Below, piece by piece: positions 1-10,969 of a stretch of DNA of 15,161 bases; position 1 is the stretch's first letter; each line of letters opens with the position of its first letter. This DNA comes from Acidimicrobiales bacterium (GTDB lineage: Bacteria; Actinomycetota; Acidimicrobiia; Acidimicrobiales; VFJN01), in NCBI GenBank assembly GCA_016936035.1, contig JAFGPU010000383.1, forward strand, positions 1 to 15,161. Reading direction: 5' to 3'. The notes under the pieces are model-generated. The model saw only the letters and a list, made by a program, of their open reading frames with translations. It had not been told where the DNA came from and did no database searches. The position numbers and the translations under genes were made by a program.

Positions 1-791
1 CCCCACGAGGGCTCCGGGGGCTGGGTGCCCAGTCCGATGAACGACAGGGCGGCCTCGGACAGGATGGCGAACGCCAGGCTGACCGACGTCTGGACGATCA
101 CCGGGGCGGCCACGTTGGGCAGCACGTGGCGGCCCATGATGCGCAGGTCGCCGGCGCCGATGGAGCGGGCGGCCCGCACGTACACCTCTTCGCGGACGCT
201 GAGCACGCTGGCCCGGGTGACCCGGGCGAAGATCGGCGTGTAGACGATGCCGATGGCGATCATCGCGTTGGTCGAGCCCCGCCCGCGGATGGCGAGGATG
301 GCGATGGCCAGCAGGATCGCCGGGAACGCGAACAGCACGTCCATGGCGCGCATGATCACGTCGTCGATCCAGCCCCGGTAGAAGCCGGCGACCAGGCCCA
401 GCACGACGCCGCCGACCAGGGCGATGCTGACCGCCACCAGGCCGACCCGCAGCGACGACTCGGCCCCGATGAGCACCCGCGAGAACACGTCCCGCCCGAG
501 CTGGTCGGTGCCGAAGAGGTGGTCGAGGCTGGGGCCCTGCAACCTGTCGGCGCTCGACACCTCGTTCCGTCCGTAGGGGGCGAGCCGGTCGCCCGCCAGG
601 GCGACCACGACGAACACGGCCAGCACGGCGAGCGCCACGGCCGCCAGCCGGTTGCGCACCACCACGCGCAGGACGCCGGCGATGCCGGTGGCCTCGTCGG
701 GCGCCGCCACGGTGCCCGCCTCGGTGCCGTCGTCGGCGCCGGCCCCGGTGCCCGTCACGCTGCCCGGCTCGTTGTCCGCATCGGTGGTCAT
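1..791 (-). CDS. ABC transporter permease, DppC/OppC type (3' end missing, cut by window edge)
   Basis: This is the second membrane subunit of a dipeptide/oligopeptide-type ABC importer. It would pair with the DppB-like permease encoded just upstream and move substrate delivered by the lipoprotein of the same operon. The ATG at 791 lies 7 nt after the upstream permease stop, so the two genes are probably translationally coupled. There are 263 codons before the left edge; the family is usually about 290-320 residues, so a short C-terminus is missing. A Ser/Thr/Gly/Ala-rich N-terminus (1-38) precedes TM1 (about 49-66). The OppC-type motif HLFGTDQLGRDVFSRVL is at 91-107, the AFPAILLAI segment at 155-163, and the ABC-docking EAA-like loop around 200-230 (VRAARSIGAGD, then HVLPN). 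ATPase genes would be expected beyond the left edge. The substrate cannot be told from sequence. Confidence 0.93.
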   Translation of the reverse strand, partial: MTTDADNEPGSVTGTGAGADDGTEAGTVAAPDEATGIAGVLRVVVRNRLAAVALAVLAVFVVVALAGDRLAPYGRNEVSSADRLQGPSLDHLFGTDQLGRDVFSRVLIGAESSLRVGLVAVSIALVGGVVLGLVAGFYRGWIDDVIMRAMDVLFAFPAILLAIAILAIRGRGSTNAMIAIGIVYTPIFARVTRASVLSVREEVYVRAARSIGAGDLRIMGRHVLPNVAAPVIVQTSVSLAFAILSEAALSFIGLGTQPPEPSW

Positions 792-798
792 CGTCGGG

Positions 799-1743
799 TC
801 ACCGGTGCGAGATGCGGGGATCGACGACCGCGTAGATGAGGTCGACGATCAGGTTGACGACGAGGAAGAACACGGCGAACAGCAGGACGGCGCCCTGCAG
901 CAGGGGGTAGTCGCGGGTCTCGACGGCCTGCAGCGCGAGCTGGCCCAGGCCCTGCCAGGCGAAGACCACCTCGACCACCACGACGCCCGACAGCAGGTAG
1001 GCGAGCTGGATGCCGGTGACCGTGATGACCGGCACGAGCGCGTTGCGCAGCACGTGGCGGTTGATGACCGTGCGGGCCGGCAGGCCCTTGGCCCGGGCGG
1101 TGCGGGTGTAGTCCTGGCTCAGCGCCTCCAGCGCGCTGGACCGCACGAAGCGGGTGAGGATCGCACCGGAGACCGTGCCGACCACGACGGCGGGCAGCAC
1201 CAGGTGGCGGGCCCACTCGACCGGGTCGTCGGTGAGGGGCACGTAGCCGCTGGAGGGCAGCCAGCCGAGGGTCAGCGAGAAGAGGAGGATGGCGACGATG
1301 GCCAACCAGAAGTCGGGGATGCTGAGGCCCGCCTGGCTCGCGAACGTGGCCACGTAGTCGACCGCCGAACGGGGCCGCAGCGCGGACACGAGCCCGAGCG
1401 GCAGCGCGATGAGCAGGGCCACCACGATGGCCGCCAGGGCGAGCGACATCGTGGCGGGCAGGCGCTCGAGGATGAGGTCGGTGACGGGCTGGCCCGAGCG
1501 GAAGCTGACGCCGAGGTCGCCCCGGACCGCGTTGCCCAGCCAGTTGACGTACTGCGCGATCAGCGGGTCGTCGAGTCCGGCCCGGGCCACCAGGGCGTCG
1601 TAGGTCTGCTGGTTGAACCGGGTGCCGAGCGCCAGCCGCACGGGGTCGCCCGGCACCAGGTGGATGATCGAGAAGACCGCGACGCTGACACCGAACAGCA
1701 CCACCACGGCCTGCCCCAGCCGCCGCACCAGGTAGCGGGTCAC
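799..1743 (-). CDS. ABC transporter permease, DppB/OppB type
   Basis: This is an inner-membrane permease of a peptide/nickel-type ABC importer, 314 residues, which is normal for the family. TM1 is in the canonical N-terminus (MTRYLVRRLGQAVVVLFGVS), followed by HLVPGDPVRLALG (28-40), the GDLGVSFRSGQPV motif (75-87), several further TM segments, and the EAA loop at about 205-232 (QDYTRTARAKGLPARTV, then HVLRNALVP) that docks on the ATPase. It starts with GTG at 1743; no better start keeps the conserved N-terminus. That GTG lies in the 3' arm of a perfect 16-bp hairpin (1735-1775), so initiation may depend on unfolding. The gene is 43 bp downstream of the binding-protein stop and 7 bp upstream of the next permease, as in a dppABC-type operon. 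Confidence 0.95.
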   Translation of the reverse strand: MTRYLVRRLGQAVVVLFGVSVAVFSIIHLVPGDPVRLALGTRFNQQTYDALVARAGLDDPLIAQYVNWLGNAVRGDLGVSFRSGQPVTDLILERLPATMSLALAAIVVALLIALPLGLVSALRPRSAVDYVATFASQAGLSIPDFWLAIVAILLFSLTLGWLPSSGYVPLTDDPVEWARHLVLPAVVVGTVSGAILTRFVRSSALEALSQDYTRTARAKGLPARTVINRHVLRNALVPVITVTGIQLAYLLSGVVVVEVVFAWQGLGQLALQAVETRDYPLLQGAVLLFAVFFLVVNLIVDLIYAVVDPRISHR

Positions 1744-1775
1744 CGGCGCGGCCGCCCGCCGCGCCGGTGACCCGC
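1735..1775 (-). promoter_or_regulatory. Intercistronic hairpin over the dppB-like start codon
   Basis: The perfect 16-bp inverted repeat GCGGGTCACCGGCGCG (1735-1750) and CGCGCCGGTGACCCGC (1760-1775) has a 9-nt loop. It lies between the stop of the binding-protein gene (1787) and the first codons of the permease gene, and it contains the permease GTG start (1743-1741) and the place a ribosome binding site would occupy. There is no U-tract, so it is not a standard terminator. Inferred role: stabilise the 3' end of the binding-protein mRNA and limit permease translation, giving more lipoprotein than permease. Confidence 0.7.
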
Positions 1776-1786
1776 CGGCCCTGTGG

Positions 1787-3313
1787 TCACGACAGGCTGA
1801 CCGTCTCGAAGTTGATGGCCCGGTCGGCCCGGATCTCGTAGCCCTCGACGTCCTCGCCCCAGCCCTGCACGACGCTCGGGTTGTACAGGTAGATGTAGCT
1901 GTTGGCGTCGACGATGCGCTCGGCGGCCTCGTCGTAGAGCTGCTTGCGGGCGTCTTCGTCCTCTTCGGTGGCCGCGTCGTCGAGCAGCTGGTCGGTCTCC
2001 GGGTCGCAGTAGCCCTGGTAGTTGTTCTCGCCGTCGCAGATGTGCTGGCTGTGGTAGTAGCCGTACGGGTCGAGGTTGCCGAGCCACCCGAGCATGAAGG
2101 CGTCGAAGTCGCCCTGGCCCTGGCGGTCGAGCCAGGTGCTGAACTGCTCGGTCTGGATGTCGACGGTGATGCCGATCTCGCCCAGGTTGGCGGCGATGAC
2201 CTGGGCGACCTCGACGGTCTCGGGGTACTCGTCGGTGACCATCAGGCCCATGGTGACGTCGCTCACGCCAGCGTCGTCGAGCAGCTGCTGGGCGGCGTCG
2301 ACGTCACGCTCGTAGGGCGCGTAGTCGTGGTACCAGAACGAGTCCTCGGGGATGGCGGTCTGGTTGACCGTGGCCAGCCCGAACTGGGCGGCGTCTGCGA
2401 TGGCCTCGCGGTCGAGGGCGAGGGCGATGGCCTCGCGCACCTCGGCCTGGTCGAACGGGGGCACGGCGAAGTTGGTGGCCATGTACCAGTAGTCGACGCT
2501 GGGCACGGTCTCGACGGTGACGCCGCTGCCGCCCTCGAGCTCCTCGACGCGCTGGGGCGGGATGTTGTCGGTCCAGTGGACCTCGCCGGTCTCGAGGGCC
2601 GTCAGCGCCGTGGTCGGCTCGCTGATGAACTGGAACTCGACCGAGCCGACCTCGGGCCCGTCGCCCCAGTAGTCGTCGAACGCCTCGAGGGTGATGCCGC
2701 TGGCCGTCGAGCTGGCCAGCGTGAACGGGCCGGTGCCGTTGGCCTCGGTGGCCAGGTCGAGGTCGTCGGCGGCCCCCTCGGGCAGGATGGCGACCCCCTT
2801 GTAGCTGCCCACGTGGTCGAGCAGGTTGGGGGTGGGCTCACTCAGCTCGAACTCGACGGTGGTGGCGTCGGGCGCGGTGATGTCGCTGACCGTGGCGAAC
2901 CGGTAGGCGTTCTGCAGCTCGTCGTCGATGATGCGCCGGAACGTGTAGACGACGTCGTCCGCGTCGAACTCGGAGCCGTCGTGGAACGTGACGTCGTCGC
3001 GCAGGGTGAAGGTCCACGTGAGGCCGTCGTCACTCGTCTCCCACTCGGTGGCGAGGGCCGGTTCGAACGTCAGGTCCTCCGGGTCGGGCACCACCAGGGT
3101 GTCGTAGACGTTCTCGAGGACCTGGAAGCTGGCGTACGCCGTGGTCTGGTGGGGGTCGAGCTGGTCGGGCTGGGCGCTGATCGCGGCGACGAAGTCGCCC
3201 CCGCCGCCCGCGCCGTCGACCGGCACCCCCTCGTCGTCGTCAGAGCAGGCGGACGCCGCCACGAGGGCGGCGCCCAGGGCGACTGTGAGGGCACGACGGA
3301 TCGGCCAGCGCAT
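1787..3313 (-). CDS. ABC transporter substrate-binding lipoprotein, family 5 (DppA/OppA-like)
   Basis: This is the extracellular solute-binding protein of the importer encoded downstream, 508 residues and typical for SBP_bac_5. The start is the ATG at 3313, with GGGGGAA just upstream; a longer in-frame reading to 3577 runs into the kinase gene and has no family similarity. The lipoprotein signal is clear: basic RR at 6-7, a hydrophobic stretch, then lipobox AASAC with Cys23, followed by an Asp/Gly-rich linker. Family hallmarks follow: AQPDQLDPHQTTAYASF, PALATEWETSDDGLTWTFTLR, VTFHDGSEFDADDVVYTFRR, and the mid-region DREAIADAAQFG. It should be anchored to the outer face of the membrane and bind a peptide-like ligand, though family 5 also binds nickel, opines and sugars, so the substrate is open. 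It lies 100 bp downstream of the hybrid kinase gene on the same strand. Confidence 0.93.
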   Translation of the reverse strand: MRWPIRRALTVALGAALVAASACSDDDEGVPVDGAGGGGDFVAAISAQPDQLDPHQTTAYASFQVLENVYDTLVVPDPEDLTFEPALATEWETSDDGLTWTFTLRDDVTFHDGSEFDADDVVYTFRRIIDDELQNAYRFATVSDITAPDATTVEFELSEPTPNLLDHVGSYKGVAILPEGAADDLDLATEANGTGPFTLASSTASGITLEAFDDYWGDGPEVGSVEFQFISEPTTALTALETGEVHWTDNIPPQRVEELEGGSGVTVETVPSVDYWYMATNFAVPPFDQAEVREAIALALDREAIADAAQFGLATVNQTAIPEDSFWYHDYAPYERDVDAAQQLLDDAGVSDVTMGLMVTDEYPETVEVAQVIAANLGEIGITVDIQTEQFSTWLDRQGQGDFDAFMLGWLGNLDPYGYYHSQHICDGENNYQGYCDPETDQLLDDAATEEDEDARKQLYDEAAERIVDANSYIYLYNPSVVQGWGEDVEGYEIRADRAINFETVSLS

Positions 3314-3413: not shown

Positions 3414-5456
3414 CTATGCGCGCATCGACGCGCGACGACGTTCGCCCGTGGAGCCGTCGGCCGCCGTGGCGGCGAAGCGGTCCAGCAGGTCGACGAGATC
3501 ACCCACCTGCACCGGCTTCGCCATGTACCCCACCGCACCCTCCCGGTACAGCCGGTCGCGGGAGCGCTGGGTCGCATCCGCGGAGATCACGACGACGGGG
3601 ATGTCGGCGGTACCCGGGTCGGCCTTCAGCCGCTCGAGCACCTCGTGGCCGTCCAGGTCGGGCAGTCCGAGGTCGAGCAGCACGAGGTGGGGTCGGTGCT
3701 CGCGCGTGGCATCGATGCCCGCCTGTCCGGTCGCCACCATCTCGAGGCGCTCCGGGCGGTCGCGTAGCACCCTCTCGACCAGGCGCTGGTTGGCCCGGTT
3801 GTCCTCGATGTAGAGCACGAGGGGCCCCGGGCCCTCGCCCCGGATCGTCGTCCGCGGTGACGGCGGCGCCGCCGCGGGTGCGGGGACGCGCGTGCTGTCG
3901 CCCCGGGGGAGGTCGACCCAGAACGTGGAGCCCGTCCCGAGCGTCGATTCCACGCCGATCGCGCCGCCCATGGCCTCGACCAGCCCCTTCGACAGCGCGA
4001 GGCCGACGCCGGTGCCGTCGATGCCCAGGTCGTCGACGCCCAGCCGCTCGAACGGCTCGAACAGCTGGTCGAGGCCGTCGGGGGCGATGCCCGGTCCCGT
4101 GTCGGTGACCGAGAGGCGCACCCACCGGTCGTCGTCGTCCCGGCCGGCCCCCGGGGGCGGGTCGGTGGCCGTGGCCGCCACCGCGATGCGCCCGCCGTGG
4201 CGGTTGTACTTCACGGCGTTGGTCAGCAGGTTCAGCATCACCTGCTCGAGGCGCTGCCGGTCGGCCTGCACGGTCAGCTGGTCCGGCGCGTCGACGGTTA
4301 TCGAGAGCTCCCGGTCGTCGGCCTGGCGCCGGACGAACGCCACGGCCTCGCCGACGACGTCGTCGACGAGGACGGGCTCGACCGACATCGAGACCGCACC
4401 GGCCTCGATCCGCGCGATGTCGAGGACCTCGTTGATGAGGGAGAGCAGGTGGTGACCCGCCCGGACGATGTGGTCGACGCTCTCGCGGTCGTCGTCGCTC
4501 AGCTCCTCGGTCTGCAGGAGCTGTCCGAACCCGATGATGGCGCTCAGCGGTGTGCGCAGCTCGTGGCTGACCCGCGAGAGGAACTCGTCCTTGGCCGCGG
4601 TGGCCGCCAGCGCCTCGTCGCGGCTCGCTCGGAGGTCGCGCTCGTTCTCGGCGAGGAGGCGACCCACCCGGCCCAGTGAGGCGCTCAACTGCCCGATCTC
4701 GTCTCGCGCATCGACGACGGGCGTGAGGGGCCTGCCCTGCCAGAACCGCCTGATGTTGTCGGACAGCACCACCGTGCGGTCGATGATGCTGCTGGCGATG
4801 ATGGCCCCGCCGGCGAGGCTGGTGGCGATCACCGCGAGCAGGCCGAGCATCAGCGTCCACTGGGTCAGGTCCTGCAGGCGCAGCGACTCGTCGGCCTGGT
4901 CGGTGACATCGCTCAGCAGGTCGGTGCGCACGACGGCGGCGGTGGCCAGGAACGTCTCGACGTCCGCGATCTCCTCCTGGAGGATCGCTGCGGCGCTGGC
5001 CCGGTCCTCCGGTGCGGTCGCGATCCCGTCACGCGCCCGTCCCAGGGCGTCGACCGCCCCCGTCGCTGCCTGCGCCGTCTCCTGGAGGCCCGCGAGGTGG
5101 GCGTCGGGTGCGCCGGCGGTGATCTGGCGCAGGCGGGTGGGCAGCGTGGCGTCGAGGGACTGGTACGGGCCGAGCAACCCCGGATCTCCCGTGGCCGCGT
5201 AGCCGCGCACGGCGCTGTCGGCCTCGCCCACGGCCTCCGTGAGCAGCGAGGTCTCGATGAGCGTGTTGGTGCCGACGCGCAGCTCCTCGCGCAGGTTGGC
5301 CGCCCTCTGCTGGAGCACGAAGGCGGCGACGAGCACCCCGACCGTGACGGCCAGCGGCACCATGATCAGCACGGCGCCCTTGCTGCGCAGCGGCAGACCG
5401 AGCCACCAGCGACCGAAGCGGGTCCGTGCCCGGAGCGGCGCCGGAAGGGCCGACAT
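3414..5456 (-). CDS. CHASE3 hybrid sensor histidine kinase with C-terminal receiver domain
   Basis: This is a membrane sensor kinase of 680 residues. In order it has TM1 (about 28-49); a mainly helical extracytoplasmic region at 50-195 that fits CHASE3; TM2 (about 200-223); HAMP (about 224-275); HisKA with the phospho-acceptor His298 in RVSHELRTPL; HATPase_c with the N-box Asn413 (NLLTNAVKYN), G1 DTGPGIAP at 452-459 and G2 GTGVGLALSKGL; and a receiver domain at about 545-662 with acidic pair Glu551/Asp552, phospho-Asp595 (LLDLGLPDLDG), Ser625 and Lys647. All catalytic residues look intact. The start at 5456 is preferred because GAGAGAG lies about 6 nt upstream and the nine extra codons from the ATG at 5483 include rare ones such as AGA. 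It is divergent from the receiver-PIG-L gene, its likely partner. There is no DNA-binding domain, so output runs through the receiver or by phosphotransfer. Confidence 0.93.
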   Translation of the reverse strand: MSALPAPLRARTRFGRWWLGLPLRSKGAVLIMVPLAVTVGVLVAAFVLQQRAANLREELRVGTNTLIETSLLTEAVGEADSAVRGYAATGDPGLLGPYQSLDATLPTRLRQITAGAPDAHLAGLQETAQAATGAVDALGRARDGIATAPEDRASAAAILQEEIADVETFLATAAVVRTDLLSDVTDQADESLRLQDLTQWTLMLGLLAVIATSLAGGAIIASSIIDRTVVLSDNIRRFWQGRPLTPVVDARDEIGQLSASLGRVGRLLAENERDLRASRDEALAATAAKDEFLSRVSHELRTPLSAIIGFGQLLQTEELSDDDRESVDHIVRAGHHLLSLINEVLDIARIEAGAVSMSVEPVLVDDVVGEAVAFVRRQADDRELSITVDAPDQLTVQADRQRLEQVMLNLLTNAVKYNRHGGRIAVAATATDPPPGAGRDDDDRWVRLSVTDTGPGIAPDGLDQLFEPFERLGVDDLGIDGTGVGLALSKGLVEAMGGAIGVESTLGTGSTFWVDLPRGDSTRVPAPAAAPPSPRTTIRGEGPGPLVLYIEDNRANQRLVERVLRDRPERLEMVATGQAGIDATREHRPHLVLLDLGLPDLDGHEVLERLKADPGTADIPVVVISADATQRSRDRLYREGAVGYMAKPVQVGDLVDLLDRFAATAADGSTGERRRASMRA

Positions 5457-5490
5457 GCGCCGCTCTCTCGATGTGGCCGCCATGTCGCTC

Positions 5491-5506
5491 ACAGTGGTTG
5501 CACTGT
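5491..5506. promoter_or_regulatory. Palindrome in the divergent kinase/receiver-PIG-L promoter region
   Basis: ACAGTGGTTGCACTGT is a 6-bp inverted repeat with a 4-nt spacer. It lies in the short region between the divergently read kinase (start 5456) and receiver-PIG-L gene (start 5567). It could be an operator controlling both genes or a small hairpin. A TACAGT box on the minus strand (5507-5502) overlaps it and could be the -10 of the kinase gene. No regulator can be named. Confidence 0.4.
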
Positions 5507-5566
5507 ACCGTTGGGTCACAGAGAGCGCGCGGGTCGCAGGCTCGCTCCACGACGCAGGCGGTGACC

Positions 5567-6625
5567 ATGGCAAGCTCAGGCGACACGGGTGCACGCCCGC
5601 CCGGACACGTCCTGATCGTCGAGGACGACGAGGGCACCGCGCGCTTCCTGGTGCGGGCGCTCGAACGGGCCGGGTACACGGCCACCGCCGTCGGCGACGC
5701 CATCGCGGCCGAGCGGCACCTCGATGCGGCGGACTACGACGCCCTCCTCGTCGACATCGGGCTGCCCGGCGCGTCGGGCTTCGACCTCGTCCGGGAGATG
5801 AAGGCGGCGCACCCGGGCCTGCCGATGGCCCTGATGACGGCGAACGCCGACTTGGAGGTGGCGGTTCAGGCCCTGCGCAGCGAGGTCGACGACTTCCTGG
5901 TGAAGCCCATCGAGCCCCAGGCGCTGGCCGATCAGGTCGGCCGGCTGGTCCGGCGGGGCCGGGCCGCCGGCGCGGGGAACGAGCGGGTGCTGGCCGTCGG
6001 CGCCCATCCCGATGCCGTCGAGGTCGGCGTCGGCGGCACGCTGCTGCGCCACCGCTTCATGGGCGACGAGGTGGCGGTGCTCGCCCTGAGCCACGGCGCC
6101 GACGGCGACGTGCGCCTGGAGCGTGCCGCCCAGGCGGCGCGGGCCGCCGAGCTGCTCGGCGCCGAGCTGTACCTGTACGACCTCGAGCCCGACCGCATCT
6201 CCGAGACCGAGCCGACGGTGGGCCTGATCGACGGGGTCGTCGCCGAGTTCGCTCCCACCATCGTCTACACGCACACGGCCAACGACCAGCGCAAGGACCA
6301 CCGCAACACGCACCAGGCCACCCTGTCCGCGACGCGCCGGGTCCGCGCGGTCTACTGCTACGAGGGACCGTCGGCCACCGTCGACTTCCGACCCGGCCGG
6401 TTCGTGACCGTCGATCCGTTCATCGAAGCGAAGATCGAGGCGATCGGTGCCTTCGGCACCCAGATCACGGCCCGCAGGTACCTCGATCCCGAGATGGTGC
6501 GGGCGACGGGCCGCTACTGGGGGCGCTTCGGCGACAGCCGGTACTGCGAGCCGTTCGAGGTGGTGCGCGAGGGGGTGCGGCAACGGAGCACCGTCGCGGT
6601 CGGCGAGGCGGGTGCCACCCCGTGA
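5567..6625 (+). CDS. Response regulator with PIG-L/LmbE-family deacetylase output domain
   Basis: This 352-residue fusion has a CheY-like receiver at about 14-128 and a PIG-L (GlcNAc-PI de-N-acetylase/LmbE) domain at about 141-330. The receiver looks functional: Glu19/Asp20/Asp21, phospho-Asp63 (LLVDIGLPG), Thr91 and Lys113 (LVKPIEP). The PIG-L domain starts with VGAHPDAVEVGVGGTLLRH (145-162 region) and carries the later THTANDQRKDHRNTH motif with His245 (235-249). Family members normally have HPDD, in which the first Asp is the general base and the second Asp is a zinc ligand; here the second is Ala150. Known members hydrolyse N-acetyl groups from GlcNAc conjugates or related amides, and the substrate here is unknown. 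The start at 5567 (ATG, AGGCGG about 6 nt upstream) is preferred over in-frame codons reading back into the kinase promoter. It has no signal peptide, so is cytoplasmic. It is probably phosphorylated by the divergent hybrid kinase. Confidence 0.9.
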   Translation: MASSGDTGARPPGHVLIVEDDEGTARFLVRALERAGYTATAVGDAIAAERHLDAADYDALLVDIGLPGASGFDLVREMKAAHPGLPMALMTANADLEVAVQALRSEVDDFLVKPIEPQALADQVGRLVRRGRAAGAGNERVLAVGAHPDAVEVGVGGTLLRHRFMGDEVAVLALSHGADGDVRLERAAQAARAAELLGAELYLYDLEPDRISETEPTVGLIDGVVAEFAPTIVYTHTANDQRKDHRNTHQATLSATRRVRAVYCYEGPSATVDFRPGRFVTVDPFIEAKIEAIGAFGTQITARRYLDPEMVRATGRYWGRFGDSRYCEPFEVVREGVRQRSTVAVGEAGATP

Positions 6626-6744: not shown

Positions 6745-7962
6745 ATGAGCGAGTTCTCCCTCACCCTGAACGAAGACCAGCAGCAGATCCAGAAGTGGGT
6801 CCACGACTTCGCCGAGTCCGTGGTGCGACCGGCGGCCGAGGAGTGGGACGAGAAAGAGGAGTTCCCCTGGCCGATCGTCGAGGAGGCCGCCAAGATCGGC
6901 CTCTACTCGTTCGACTTCTTCGCCCAGTCCTCGCTCGGCGACCCGTCGGGCCTGACGCTGCCGGTCGCCCTCGAGGAGCTGTTCTGGGGCGACGCCGGCA
7001 TCGGCCTGGCGATCTTCGGCTCCGGCCTCGCCGCCGCTGGCATCGCCGGCACCGGCACCCCCGAGCAGGTCATGGAGTGGGTGCCCCAGTGCTTCGGGAC
7101 CGCTGACCAGATCCAGCTCGGCGCGTTCTGCGTGTCCGAACCCGACGCCGGCTCGGATGTCAGCTCGCTCAAGACCCGCGCCGTCTACGACGAGGCCAAC
7201 GACGAGTGGGTGCTCAACGGCACCAAGGCGTGGATCACCAACGGCGGCATCGCGGACGTCCACGTCGTGGTGGCCGCGGTCGACCCGGCGCTGAAGGGCC
7301 GGGGCCAGGCGAGCTTCATCGTCCCGCCCGGCACCAAGGGCATCTCGCAGGGCCAGAAGTACAAGAAGCACGGCATCCGGGCCTCGCACACCGCCGAGGT
7401 GGTGCTCGACGACGTGCGCGTCCCCGGAAGCCTGCTGCTCGGTGGCAAGGAGAAGCTCGACGAGAAGCTGGCGCGCGCCCGCGACCAGCAGAAGACCGGC
7501 GCCAAGCAGCCGGCCATGGCCACCTTCGAGGCCACCCGGCCGGCGGTGGCCGCCATGGCCATCGGCATCGCCCGTGCCGCCTACGAGTACGCGCTCGACT
7601 ACGCCAAGGAGCGCCGGGCGTTCGGCAAGGCCATCATCGAGAACCAGGCGATCTCGTTCATGCTGGCCGACATGGCCACCGAGATCGACGCCGCCCGCCT
7701 GCTCGTCCACCGGGCCGCGTGGCTGTCGCGCAACGGCGGCTACACCAACGCCGAGGGCTCGATGTCCAAGCTCAAGGCCGGCCGCGTCGCTGTGTGGGCC
7801 ACCGAGCGGGCCATCCAGATCCTGGGCGGCTACGGCTACACGCGCGAGTACCCCGTCGAGCGCTTCCACCGCGACGCGAAGATCTACGACATCTTCGAGG
7901 GCACCGAGCAGATCCAGCAGCTCGTCATCGCCCGGGCGATCAGCGGCCTGCGCGTCGAGTAG
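6745..7962 (+). CDS. Acyl-CoA dehydrogenase
   Basis: This FAD-dependent flavoenzyme would introduce the alpha-beta double bond in an acyl-CoA during fatty-acid or branched-chain acid breakdown and pass electrons to ETF. It has 405 residues, near the family norm. The signature CVSEPDAGSDVSSLKTRA (129-146) and WITNGG (163-168) line the FAD and substrate sites. The C-terminal block GGYGYTREYPVERFHRDAKI is followed by IFEGTEQIQQ with the likely catalytic base at about Glu385. The start ATG at 6745 has AAGGG about 9 nt upstream. Residues about 234-262 (KEKLDEKLARARDQQK onward) are a charged insertion compared with the short loop in medium-chain enzymes. The gene stands alone with its own promoter and a palindrome shared with the TetR gene, which suggests lipid-responsive control. 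Chain-length preference cannot be read from the sequence. Confidence 0.95.
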   Translation: MSEFSLTLNEDQQQIQKWVHDFAESVVRPAAEEWDEKEEFPWPIVEEAAKIGLYSFDFFAQSSLGDPSGLTLPVALEELFWGDAGIGLAIFGSGLAAAGIAGTGTPEQVMEWVPQCFGTADQIQLGAFCVSEPDAGSDVSSLKTRAVYDEANDEWVLNGTKAWITNGGIADVHVVVAAVDPALKGRGQASFIVPPGTKGISQGQKYKKHGIRASHTAEVVLDDVRVPGSLLLGGKEKLDEKLARARDQQKTGAKQPAMATFEATRPAVAAMAIGIARAAYEYALDYAKERRAFGKAIIENQAISFMLADMATEIDAARLLVHRAAWLSRNGGYTNAEGSMSKLKAGRVAVWATERAIQILGGYGYTREYPVERFHRDAKIYDIFEGTEQIQQLVIARAISGLRVE

Positions 7963-8600: not shown

Positions 8601-9884
8601 GTGGCCGAGCTGTCGGAACGGATCGTTGCCCGTCGGATCCAGGAGGTGCTCGCGGCACTCATCGCCGACGAGCCGGTGATCGCGCTGCATGGTCCTCGTT
8701 CGGTGGGCAAGTCCACCCTGTTGCAGAGCTTCGCGTTGGAGCACGGAGTCGAGGTGATCGATCTCGACGATCCGGCGGTGCTCGACGCGGTCGTGGCGAA
8801 CCCGTCGTTGGCGGTGTCCGGCCCGCCGCCGGTGTGCATCGACGAGTACCAGCGGGCGGTCGACCTGCTCGACGCGCTCAAGGCCCGGCTGAACCGGGAG
8901 GGCACTGTCCCAGGCACGGCGGTCCTCACCGGGTCGACCCGTCACGACGCGATTCCCCGCACCGCGCAGGCACTGACGGGCCGGCTCCACGTGCTGACGA
9001 TCCTTCCGTTGTCCCAGGGCGAGATCGCCGGGGTGCGAGAGGATCTGCTTCCTGCGCTCCTGGACGATTCGGCTCAGGCGGTTGCCGCGGTCCCGCGGTC
9101 GCTGACCTCGCGGGGTGACTACATCGACCGGGTGTGTGCCGGGGGATTCCCACTCGCCCTGCGTCGCCAGGGCGCCGCCCGGTCGCGGTGGTTCCGTGAC
9201 TACGTGAGGCTCAGCGTCGAACGCGACGCGGCCGAGTTGGCGAAGGTCCGTCAACGGGCGGTGCTGTCGCAGCTGCTCGATCGCTTGGCGGGCCAGACCG
9301 GTCAGGTGCTGAACGTCGCCGCGGCATCGAGCGGCCTCGAGGTCCACCGGGAGACGATCGACAGCTACGTCCGTCTCCTCGAGGACTTGTGCCTGGTGCA
9401 GCGGTTGCCAGCATGGGGCAAGACGCTACGGGCCCGAGCGGCGCGCCTGCCCAAGGTCCACGTCGTCGACTCGGGGCTCGCTGCCTGGTTGCTCGGGTCG
9501 AACCCGCAGCGGTTGGCCACGCTCGATCCGACGGCGCTCAGCGAGTTCGGGCATCTCCTGGAAACCTTCGTCGTCGGAGAGCTGCGCAAGCAGGTCTCCT
9601 GGCTCGACGAGCCTGTGACTCTCGGCCATTGGCGAGCGGACGATGACGAGGTCGACCTCGTCGTGGAGTTCGAGGACGGTCGGGTGCTCGCGTTCGAGGT
9701 CAAGGCCAACCAGCGCATCGCCGGCAAGGACCTGCGCGGGTTGGTGAAACTGCGTGACCTGCTAGGTGACCGCCTTGTTGCCGGTGTCGCGCTCAGTACC
9801 GGCGAGCGTTCATACAGCACCGACCAGGACCGGATCCACGTCTTGCCCGTCGACCGGCTTTGGCAGCCCGTCCAGCGCCCCTGA
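8601..9884 (+). CDS. ATP-binding protein, AAA_14 plus DUF4143
   Basis: This is a 427-residue P-loop ATPase of the widespread AAA_14/DUF4143 family. Walker A is GPRSVGKSTLL (31-41) and Walker B is PPVCIDEYQRA (77-86, Asp81/Glu82). The sensor-like LTGSTR is at 109-114 and LPLSQGEI at 135-142. The C-terminal DUF4143 part (about 195-420) contains VHVVDSGLAAWLLG, LLETFVVGELRKQ, and Asp352...Glu366-x-Lys368 (VDLVVEF, then FEVKAN), which matches a PD-(D/E)XK nuclease-like core. The cellular role of the family is not settled; nucleic-acid-related and toxin-antitoxin-like functions have been suggested. The GTG start at 8601 is supported by the TAGGGT box 6 nt upstream. It follows a decayed defence-gene remnant and a tandem-repeat block and is probably a horizontally acquired, self-contained unit. 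Confidence 0.9.
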   Translation: MAELSERIVARRIQEVLAALIADEPVIALHGPRSVGKSTLLQSFALEHGVEVIDLDDPAVLDAVVANPSLAVSGPPPVCIDEYQRAVDLLDALKARLNREGTVPGTAVLTGSTRHDAIPRTAQALTGRLHVLTILPLSQGEIAGVREDLLPALLDDSAQAVAAVPRSLTSRGDYIDRVCAGGFPLALRRQGAARSRWFRDYVRLSVERDAAELAKVRQRAVLSQLLDRLAGQTGQVLNVAAASSGLEVHRETIDSYVRLLEDLCLVQRLPAWGKTLRARAARLPKVHVVDSGLAAWLLGSNPQRLATLDPTALSEFGHLLETFVVGELRKQVSWLDEPVTLGHWRADDDEVDLVVEFEDGRVLAFEVKANQRIAGKDLRGLVKLRDLLGDRLVAGVALSTGERSYSTDQDRIHVLPVDRLWQPVQRP

Positions 9885-9921
9885 CCACCACACCCCCTGG
9901 CCGCGTCGTCCTCGTGCGCGA

Positions 9922-9952
9922 GGCGCCGGCCCGGTCGATCGGGCCCGGCGCC
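9922..9952 (+). terminator. GC-rich hairpin after the ATPase gene
   Basis: GGCGCCGGCCCG (9922-9933) pairs with CGGGCCCGGCGCC (9940-9952) around a 6-nt loop with one bulged C. It starts 37 nt past the ATPase stop and precedes the promoter of the next gene. There is no U-tract. Confidence 0.5.
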
Positions 9953-9984
9953 GTCGTGCGTCCCACCCCGAGCCGTCCCCCCGG

Positions 9985-9990
9985 TACCGT
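9985..9990 (+). promoter_or_regulatory. -10-like TACCGT box, leaderless start of the polymerase-domain gene
   Basis: TACCGT ends 7 nt before the ATG at 9998, with no ribosome binding site between them, as in leaderless actinobacterial genes. No good -35 is visible. Confidence 0.45.
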
Positions 9991-9997
9991 CACGCAG

Positions 9998-10969
9998 ATG
10001 GCGAAGGCTCCGGCGGCAGAGGTGCAGGTGGGCGAGAGGACGGTGCGCGTCACCAACCCGGACCGCGTGTACTTCCCCGCCACCGGAGCCACCAAGCTCG
10101 ACCTCGTCGAGTACTACCTGGCCGTCGGGCCGGGCATCGTCAACGCCCTGCGCGAGCGGCCCTGCATGCTGCACCGCTTCCCGACGGGGGTCGCCGGCGA
10201 CAAGGTCCACCAGAAGCGCGTCCCGGCCGGGGCGCCCCCGTGGCTCGAGATCGTGCGCGTCCACTTCCCGCGCTACGGGCAGCACGCCGACGAGCTGTGC
10301 GTGACCGAGCTGGCCCACGTCGTCTGGGCGGTGCAGATGTCGACCGTCGAGTTCCACCCCTGGAACTCGCGCCGGGCGGACACCGAGAAGCCCGACGAGT
10401 GGCGCATCGACCTCGACCCCATGCCGGCATGCCCCCTCGCCACCGTGCGCCGCGTGGCCCATGTGGCGCACGAGGTGCTGGACGAGCTCGGGGCGGTCGG
10501 CTGGCCGAAGACCTCGGGCGGCAACGGGCTCCACGTCTACGTGCGCATCGAGCCGGCGTTCGGGTTCACCGACGTGCGGCGCGCCGCGCTCGCCTTCGCC
10601 CGCGAGGTCGAGCGGCGTGCCCCGGATGCCGTGACGACCACGTGGTGGCGCAAGGACCGTGACCCCACGGCCGTCTTCGTCGACTACAACCAGAACGCCC
10701 GAGACCACACGATGGCTGCGGCCTACTCCGTGCGGGGGGTGCCCGAGGCCACCGTGTCGACGCCGATCACCTGGGACGAGGTCGACACGGTCGAACCGGG
10801 GGACTGCACGCTGCACACCGTGCCCCGGCGGTTCGCCGAGCTCGGTGACCTCCACGCGGGCATCGACGGGGCCGTCTTCGCCATCGACGAGCTGCTCGAG
10901 TGGGCCGACCGGGACGAGCGCGCCGGCGAGACCGACGGTGGCGTCCCGGACGAGCCGGGTGCGGGCTGA
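9998..10969 (+). CDS. LigD-type polymerase/primase domain protein (NHEJ-type PolDom)
   Basis: This stand-alone archaeo-eukaryotic-primase-like polymerase domain has 323 residues, the usual size for ligD_pol. Visible motifs are the N-terminal VTNPDRVYFPATGATKLDLVEYY (split at 18-40), VEFHPWNSR (117-125), the catalytic metal pair Asp138/Asp140 in DLDP, the nucleotide-binding TSGGNGLHVYVRI (172-184), third acidic residue Asp229 in VFVDYNQNARDHTMAAAYSVR, and ATVSTPITWDEV (251-262). In mycobacteria such proteins add nucleotides, including ribonucleotides, at DNA ends during non-homologous end joining or gap repair. No ligase or nuclease domain is attached and no ku gene is in the window, so its partner is elsewhere or it acts alone. 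The ATG at 9998 is chosen because a TACCGT box lies 7 nt upstream and the family N-terminus begins there. Confidence 0.92.
   Translation: MAKAPAAEVQVGERTVRVTNPDRVYFPATGATKLDLVEYYLAVGPGIVNALRERPCMLHRFPTGVAGDKVHQKRVPAGAPPWLEIVRVHFPRYGQHADELCVTELAHVVWAVQMSTVEFHPWNSRRADTEKPDEWRIDLDPMPACPLATVRRVAHVAHEVLDELGAVGWPKTSGGNGLHVYVRIEPAFGFTDVRRAALAFAREVERRAPDAVTTTWWRKDRDPTAVFVDYNQNARDHTMAAAYSVRGVPEATVSTPITWDEVDTVEPGDCTLHTVPRRFAELGDLHAGIDGAVFAIDELLEWADRDERAGETDGGVPDEPGAG

Follow-up and report, generated by a model that had tools for sequence, protein, structure and literature searches.

A receiver–PIG-L response regulator with an altered deacetylase site, paired with a CHASE3-type hybrid histidine kinase in an Acidimicrobiales contig

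The window analysed here is a whole contig (C369; 15,161 bases, G+C about 72%) of the 3.2-Mb, 67.9% complete assembly G000 from an Acidimicrobiales bacterium. It carries, in divergent orientation, a gene for a CHASE3-type hybrid histidine kinase and a gene for a response regulator in which a receiver (REC) domain is joined to a PIG-L/LmbE-fold domain (Table 1). On the sequence data, this pair is probably a two-component system whose response regulator is a non-catalytic pseudo-deacetylase; the reading draws on the domain architecture, the loss of site residues, the linkage of the two genes, a shift in constraint and the absence of certain neighbour genes, all of which were computed. Receiver–PIG-L proteins form a widespread family, and the window copy is a derived exception within it. 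A preliminary description of this DNA had proposed that a phosphorelay acts on a deacetylase; the idea is of the right kind but probably does not hold for this protein. Both genes described there, and their ends, were confirmed by Pfam and by the open reading frames.

Table 1. Features of the window; residue numbers are those of the encoded proteins
Feature	Position	Strand	Remarks
Receiver–PIG-L response regulator, 352 amino acids	5567..6625	+	ATG 5567; Pfam Response_reg and PIG-L
Receiver (REC) domain, residues 14-131	5606..5959	+	Asp63 codon 5753-5755; Lys113 codon 5903-5905
PIG-L/LmbE-fold domain, residues 139-340	5981..6586	+	
HPDA (HPDD in the family): His147, Asp149, Ala150 replacing the zinc-ligand Asp	6005..6016	+	Alignment; roles from PMC4101496
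QRKDH (xHxDH in the family): Arg242 replacing the His equivalent to BshB His110; Asp244 and third ligand His245 kept	6287..6301	+	
CHASE3-type hybrid histidine kinase, 689 amino acids	3414..5483	-	Pfam; phospho-acceptor His307
Kinase C-terminal receiver, residues 556-667, with Asp604 and Lys656	3483..3818	-	Pfam; not in the kinase of the genus-mate
Divergent intergenic region, 83 bases between both ATGs	5484..5566	.	
Oligopeptide-type ABC transporter (neighbour)	3-3313	-	
Acyl-CoA dehydrogenase (neighbour)	6745-7962	+	

Loss of site residues and relaxed constraint in the PIG-L domain

The PIG-L/LmbE zinc deacetylases such as BshB, MshB and TT1542 share the motif HXD1D2 and a further His, of which D2 and the two His residues are metal ligands and D1 is the general base (PMC4101496). 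According to the same paper, D52A (D2) lost the most among the ligand mutants of rPIG-L, and BshB H110A had significantly lower activity. When the site residues were placed by phmmer alignment to BshB (2ixd), the window protein was found to share with these enzymes the PIG-L fold, the third ligand and the general-base Asp149, but to differ from them in the receiver fusion, in the replacement of D2 by Ala150 and in Arg242, which stands in place of the pocket His (His110 in BshB, His144 in MshB). In an alignment of 205 rows, including two duplicate pairs (L033/L106 and P0020/L091), D2 is Asp in 203 rows and Ala in two, namely the window and its 95%-identical homologue P0001, and the position of BshB His110 is occupied by His in 178 rows. 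A sequencing error at Ala150 was considered and rejected, because P0001 (25 contigs listed) has the same Ala and yet differs at 18 other residues. The match of the window protein to the PIG-L profile is the weakest of the four in its genome (65.5 bits). The receiver of the regulator is complete, with the acidic pair Asp20 and Asp21, the phospho-acceptor Asp63, Thr91 and Lys113; the phospho-acceptor is present in 202 and the Lys in all of the 205 rows. As had been stated earlier, both receivers of the pair, that of the kinase included, keep the phospho-Asp and the Lys.

A tree of 109 rows was computed after removal of the site columns, the remoter rows being thinned to one in four and four partial proteins (P0066, P0070, P0073 and P0089) as well as L033 being omitted. 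The window belongs to a clade of 21 rows, supported by the Shimodaira–Hasegawa-like approximate likelihood-ratio test (SH-aLRT 94). None of the 21 rows has the pocket His; D1 or a nearby Glu is missing as well in several, and D2 in the window and P0001. Within this clade the PIG-L domain is the faster-evolving of the two, the opposite of the rest of the tree: on a fixed topology, the ratio of PIG-L to receiver length is 1.34 in the clade, as against 0.59 outside it (ratio of ratios 2.25; 1.74-2.80 in 100 site bootstraps). Among the clades of 5-40 rows tested, raw ratios are 0.37-0.67 and ratios of ratios at most 0.91 where there is no overlap with the window's clade, and 1.06-1.56 and at least 1.50, respectively, for those wholly within it; the raw ratios compare more fairly, because the outside value for a clade without overlap includes the window's clade. 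On the stem of the clade, the PIG-L domain underwent 0.13 changes per site (bootstrap 0.05-0.23) and the receiver about none (0-0.07). Furthermore, conservation favours PIG-L over the receiver in 3% of 190 clade pairs, but in 89% of the 378 and 81% of the 276 pairs of two outside sets; the groups for this and the other constraint comparisons were hand-picked from trees and record titles, and the family or genus of some members is presumed. The constraint on the PIG-L domain is thus relaxed in the window's clade.

The glycan-type cluster of canonical members and its absence

We scanned 84 distinct loci (the window, G110, G263, G043, G338 and 79 others; L033 was excluded as identical to L106) for relatives of the genes that neighbour the copy in Microbacterium. 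Near the receiver–PIG-L gene, an ATP-grasp gene was found in 67 loci, a PHP gene in 59, a processive-type family-2 glycosyltransferase (GT2) gene in 59 and a histidine kinase gene in 65; for the 60 loci flanked by 5 kb or more on each side, the numbers are 48, 44, 44 and 53. One or more of the first three (Pfam ATPgrasp_Ter, PHP and Glyco_tranf_2_3) lie nearby in 70 of the 84 loci. By sequence, the solved structures closest to the GT2 are those of a family-2 glycosyltransferase (6yv7), a cellulose synthase and a hyaluronan synthase, and by these relatives and the gene families the canonical receiver–PIG-L gene apparently lies in a cluster for glycan synthesis. The cluster is conserved across Actinobacteria (L066:7920-12146, L045, L020 and L103:8130-12480), and ATP-grasp and GT2 relatives are also near copies in some Proteobacteria. 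MBOAT acyltransferase and GH5 cellulase-family genes adjoin the divergent kinase gene of G110 (L103:2846-5861), which fits a glycan locus. We did not meet this four-gene cluster in the open-licence PubMed Central (PMC) literature, judged by titles and abstract beginnings.

No ATP-grasp, PHP or GT2 gene was found in the window or in the 16.8 kb around the copy of G263, a 95% complete genome and the sole genus-mate of the window among the genomes compared. A move of the cluster to elsewhere in the genome was set aside, as in G263 no GT2 reached E<=1e-20 and the ATP-grasp found is just 36% identical (the genome-wide search covered GT2 and ATP-grasp, not PHP). In the whole of G000, the matches were limited to a GT2 of 34% and an ATP-grasp of 36% identity, and absence from this assembly is by itself weak because of its low completeness.

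All eight site residues are intact in 69 of the 70 loci with any cluster gene, unlike in the window (the sole altered one, L018, has D240E), as against 7 of the 14 loci without (Fisher p 5.6e-6, a value that ignores relatedness, many loci being close relatives within Cellulomonas, Blastococcus and Microbacterium). The altered loci without the cluster represent three lineages: the window and G263, L067, and a Microbacteriaceae-type group in which L074, L076, L080 and L087 are altered and L068 has an intact site. This last group also shows reversed constraint, the PIG-L domain being ahead in none of 10 pairs as against 99% of 153 pairs from 18 hand-picked relatives with the cluster. The partial repeat in Microbacteriaceae suggests that such a conversion may recur; with few independent events, the link between absence of the cluster and loss of the site is a pattern, not a proof. 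We tentatively put forward, as a possibility, that receiver–PIG-L regulators repeatedly become non-catalytic when the glycan genes are lost, and that the PIG-L fold would then be a phosphorylation-controlled module for binding a sugar, a metabolite or a protein, forming a pseudo-enzyme class of outputs.

Two loci of the Microbacteriaceae-type lineage without the cluster have additional signalling genes. An RsbW-like (HATPase_c_2) gene lies immediately ahead of the receiver–PIG-L gene in one (L080:4147-4557), and a single-domain receiver gene lies after it and before the kinase gene in the other (L087:9012-9401), as if the receiver–PIG-L gene had been drawn into a signalling hub.

Pairing with the kinase, proposed mechanism and rival explanations

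The kinase gene is linked to the receiver–PIG-L gene in the relatives G263, G110 and L009, and 11 further pairs of the 15 are metagenomic, their linkage being inferred from contigs of equal length (the equal-length pair P0006/P0198, of 2492 bases, was dropped as too short for both genes). Linkage of the two genes in relatives, which the preliminary description had named as a check, is supported by these pairs, but a CHASE3 hybrid kinase is not a feature of the family at large: matches of more than 200 bits to a profile built from relatives of the window's kinase were found only at the window, G110, G263 and L009 (4 of 84 loci). The kinase type varies by locus: those at L066, L074, L087 and L067, scanned with Pfam, are PAS types. 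The kinase and the regulator co-diverge; over the 15 pairs, the distance correlation is 0.81 for kinase and receiver and 0.53 for kinase and PIG-L domain, common ancestry contributing to both, and none of 2000 permutations reached either value.

The H and N boxes are present in all 15 linked kinases. The kinase's own receiver has the Asp and Lys in 14 of them, the exception being the kinase of G263 (L104:7001-8617), which stops after the ATPase domain. In the window kinase, Pfam finds HisKA (72.3 bits), HATPase_c (95.7 bits) and Response_reg (71.4 bits). The CHASE3 match (24 bits) is below the Pfam cut-off of 28, and the call is backed by PF05227 on close homologues and on the divergent kinase of G110 (53.5 bits). 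A start at ATG 5456, giving 680 amino acids, is as likely as that at 5483, because the 95%-identical homologue P0121 has 680 amino acids.

A histidine phosphotransfer (Hpt) domain was found in none of the four genomes searched (G000, G263, G110 and G043), though a divergent one could be missed; the control of this search matched in 8 of 14 genomes. A phosphorelay through Hpt was set aside on this result. The multistep form of the proposed phosphorelay is therefore unlikely, also because the genus-mate's kinase has no receiver, and direct transfer from His to Asp63 would be the simplest route, because of the lack of Hpt in these four genomes.

We propose that the ancestor had a CHASE3 hybrid kinase and a receiver–PIG-L enzyme within the cluster of ATP-grasp, PHP phosphatase and processive-type GT2 genes, where phosphorylation of the receiver presumably gated a deacetylation of the N-acetylglucosamine type. 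In the window lineage, the glycan genes would have gone from the neighbourhood and the PIG-L site would have decayed by the zinc-ligand Asp to Ala and pocket His to Arg replacements, with the PIG-L fold, the receiver and the kinase pairing retained. The membrane kinase would autophosphorylate at His307 and hand the phosphate straight to Asp63, and the phosphorylated regulator may then bind a hypothetical partner protein or a sugar-like ligand via the PIG-L fold, without deacetylation. A family with a receiver–PIG-L fusion in a conserved glycan-type cluster, and with one branch that pairs an abandoned-looking enzyme half with a retained signalling half, offers a natural test of catalysis against shape as the output in signalling.

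Several observations weigh against a pseudo-deacetylase. His147, Asp149, Asp244 and His245 are all retained in the window protein, and they may allow weak or altered metal chemistry. Asp150 is kept in 18 of the 20 distinct clade members, so that within the clade the metal ligand itself is lost only in the window and P0001. The association with the cluster is also uneven: L067 has lost a site His yet shows no reversal of constraint, in Cellulomonas with the cluster the two domains are about equally conserved (PIG-L ahead in 53% of 55 pairs), the site is intact in 6 of the 11 loci without the cluster that have 5 kb of flank on both sides, and a different cellulose-synthase-like glycosyltransferase lies upstream at L080, a locus scored as cluster-free. 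Among seven phylogeny-aware pairs, 2-3 agree with the association, none oppose it and 4-5 tie, a number with which significance is unreachable; if D240E of L018 is counted as a loss, one pair opposes it in a few pairings. Furthermore, the ratio of nonsynonymous to synonymous substitution (dN/dS) between the window and its genus-mate, a simple NG86 count with gene starts of our choosing, is 0.72 for the kinase core and 0.56 for the PIG-L domain, above the 0.15-0.34 of the neighbours. Together with the receiver-less kinase of the genus-mate, these raised values also fit a module on its way out.

One explanation of this kind is that kinase and regulator, roleless after loss of the glycan cluster, are drifting as a decaying relic and are unbroken by chance, and the patchy occurrence (2 of the 7 genomes of the window's family) points in the same direction. 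However, both frames are open in the window and in the genus-mate, the dN/dS of the receiver (0.33) is neighbour-like, receivers in the clade share a mean pairwise identity of 0.715, as against 0.629 in the sister set, and 39 PIG-L positions are invariant across the 20 distinct clade members; we consider a relic unlikely. A working phospho-regulated deacetylase, in which another residue compensates for the lost ligand, seems quite improbable, as the metal-ligand Asp and the pocket His are at positions known to matter in rPIG-L and BshB (PMC4101496), the domain is under relaxed constraint and its profile match is the poorest in the genome. The phospho-controlled deacetylase of the preliminary description is plausible for the canonical relatives, because the active site is intact in most members, and these relatives are a concrete place to ask whether phosphorylation gates a sugar deacetylase; for the window protein, which has lost the ligand and pocket His and has no glycan genes nearby, the evidence speaks against it. 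Finally, the fold might run another reaction: the hydratase GalB (5cgz), an enzyme by its entry title, has the same fold as the window's PIG-L domain and is named for a reaction other than deacetylation (its aligned chain has no receiver). This we regard as very improbable, since different residues are lost in different clade members, suggesting that constraint was released rather than that a new active site became fixed.

As a separate observation, the kinase core value, well over that of the neighbours, indicates fast change of the sensor.

Related systems, distribution and neighbouring genes

In Pfam, the regulator matches Response_reg with 82.4 bits (cut-off 30.2) and PIG-L with 62.4 bits (cut-off 28.2), and no DNA-binding domain was found. 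It is like the response regulators with metabolic-enzyme outputs in PMC5847659 in having a receiver on a metabolic-enzyme fold, and differs from those REC–enzyme regulators in that its enzyme half looks inactive. The terms PIG-L and LmbE are absent from that text, which describes REC–BcsA-like glycosyltransferase fusions carrying PF13641. The GT2 of the canonical cluster also belongs to PF13641. The cluster-borne receiver–PIG-L proteins of Microbacterium, Cellulomonas, Blastococcus and G110 have the same domain order as the window protein; the G110 regulator is 57.9% identical to it over residues 7-335 and has the same divergent CHASE3 hybrid kinase.

When 8000 candidates were scored against the regulator, 479 proteins matched at E<=1e-3, and all of the best 120 carry both domains. 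In the genome collection, at least 536 encoding stretches were found; the best 80 loci were kept and are, by record titles, mostly from Actinobacteria, with a few from Proteobacteria and Bacteroidetes. Sampling by top matches (120 of the 479 homologues; 80 of the at least 536 loci) favours relatives of the window. In the open-licence PMC literature, judged mostly by titles and abstract beginnings, we found no account of receiver–PIG-L proteins, and the family was not found described there. In the window's own class such proteins look rare: a full-length match was found in at least 4 of 296 genomes (G000 included), with matches confined to the PIG-L part in another 10. The corresponding numbers are at least 5 of 298 genomes for the order, a sixth matching the PIG-L part alone, and at least 3 of 396 in the phylum sample at a stricter cut-off; as 5-7 candidates were scored per genome, these class, order and phylum tallies are lower bounds and copies may be missed. 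Within the family, where all candidates were scored, both genomes with a copy belong to the window's genus.

Apart from the pair, synteny between the window and G263 is kept, with identities of 84-90% for the permeases, 85% for the binding protein and 91% for the acyl-CoA dehydrogenase; the identities are lower for the regulator (64%) and the kinase (54%). Between the acyl-CoA dehydrogenase and TetR genes of the window, genes for an AAA_14/DUF4143 ATPase and a LigD-type primase-polymerase are found at 8601-10969. These are unmatched in the 16.8 kb around the G263 copy so that either one lineage gained them by insertion or the other lost them.

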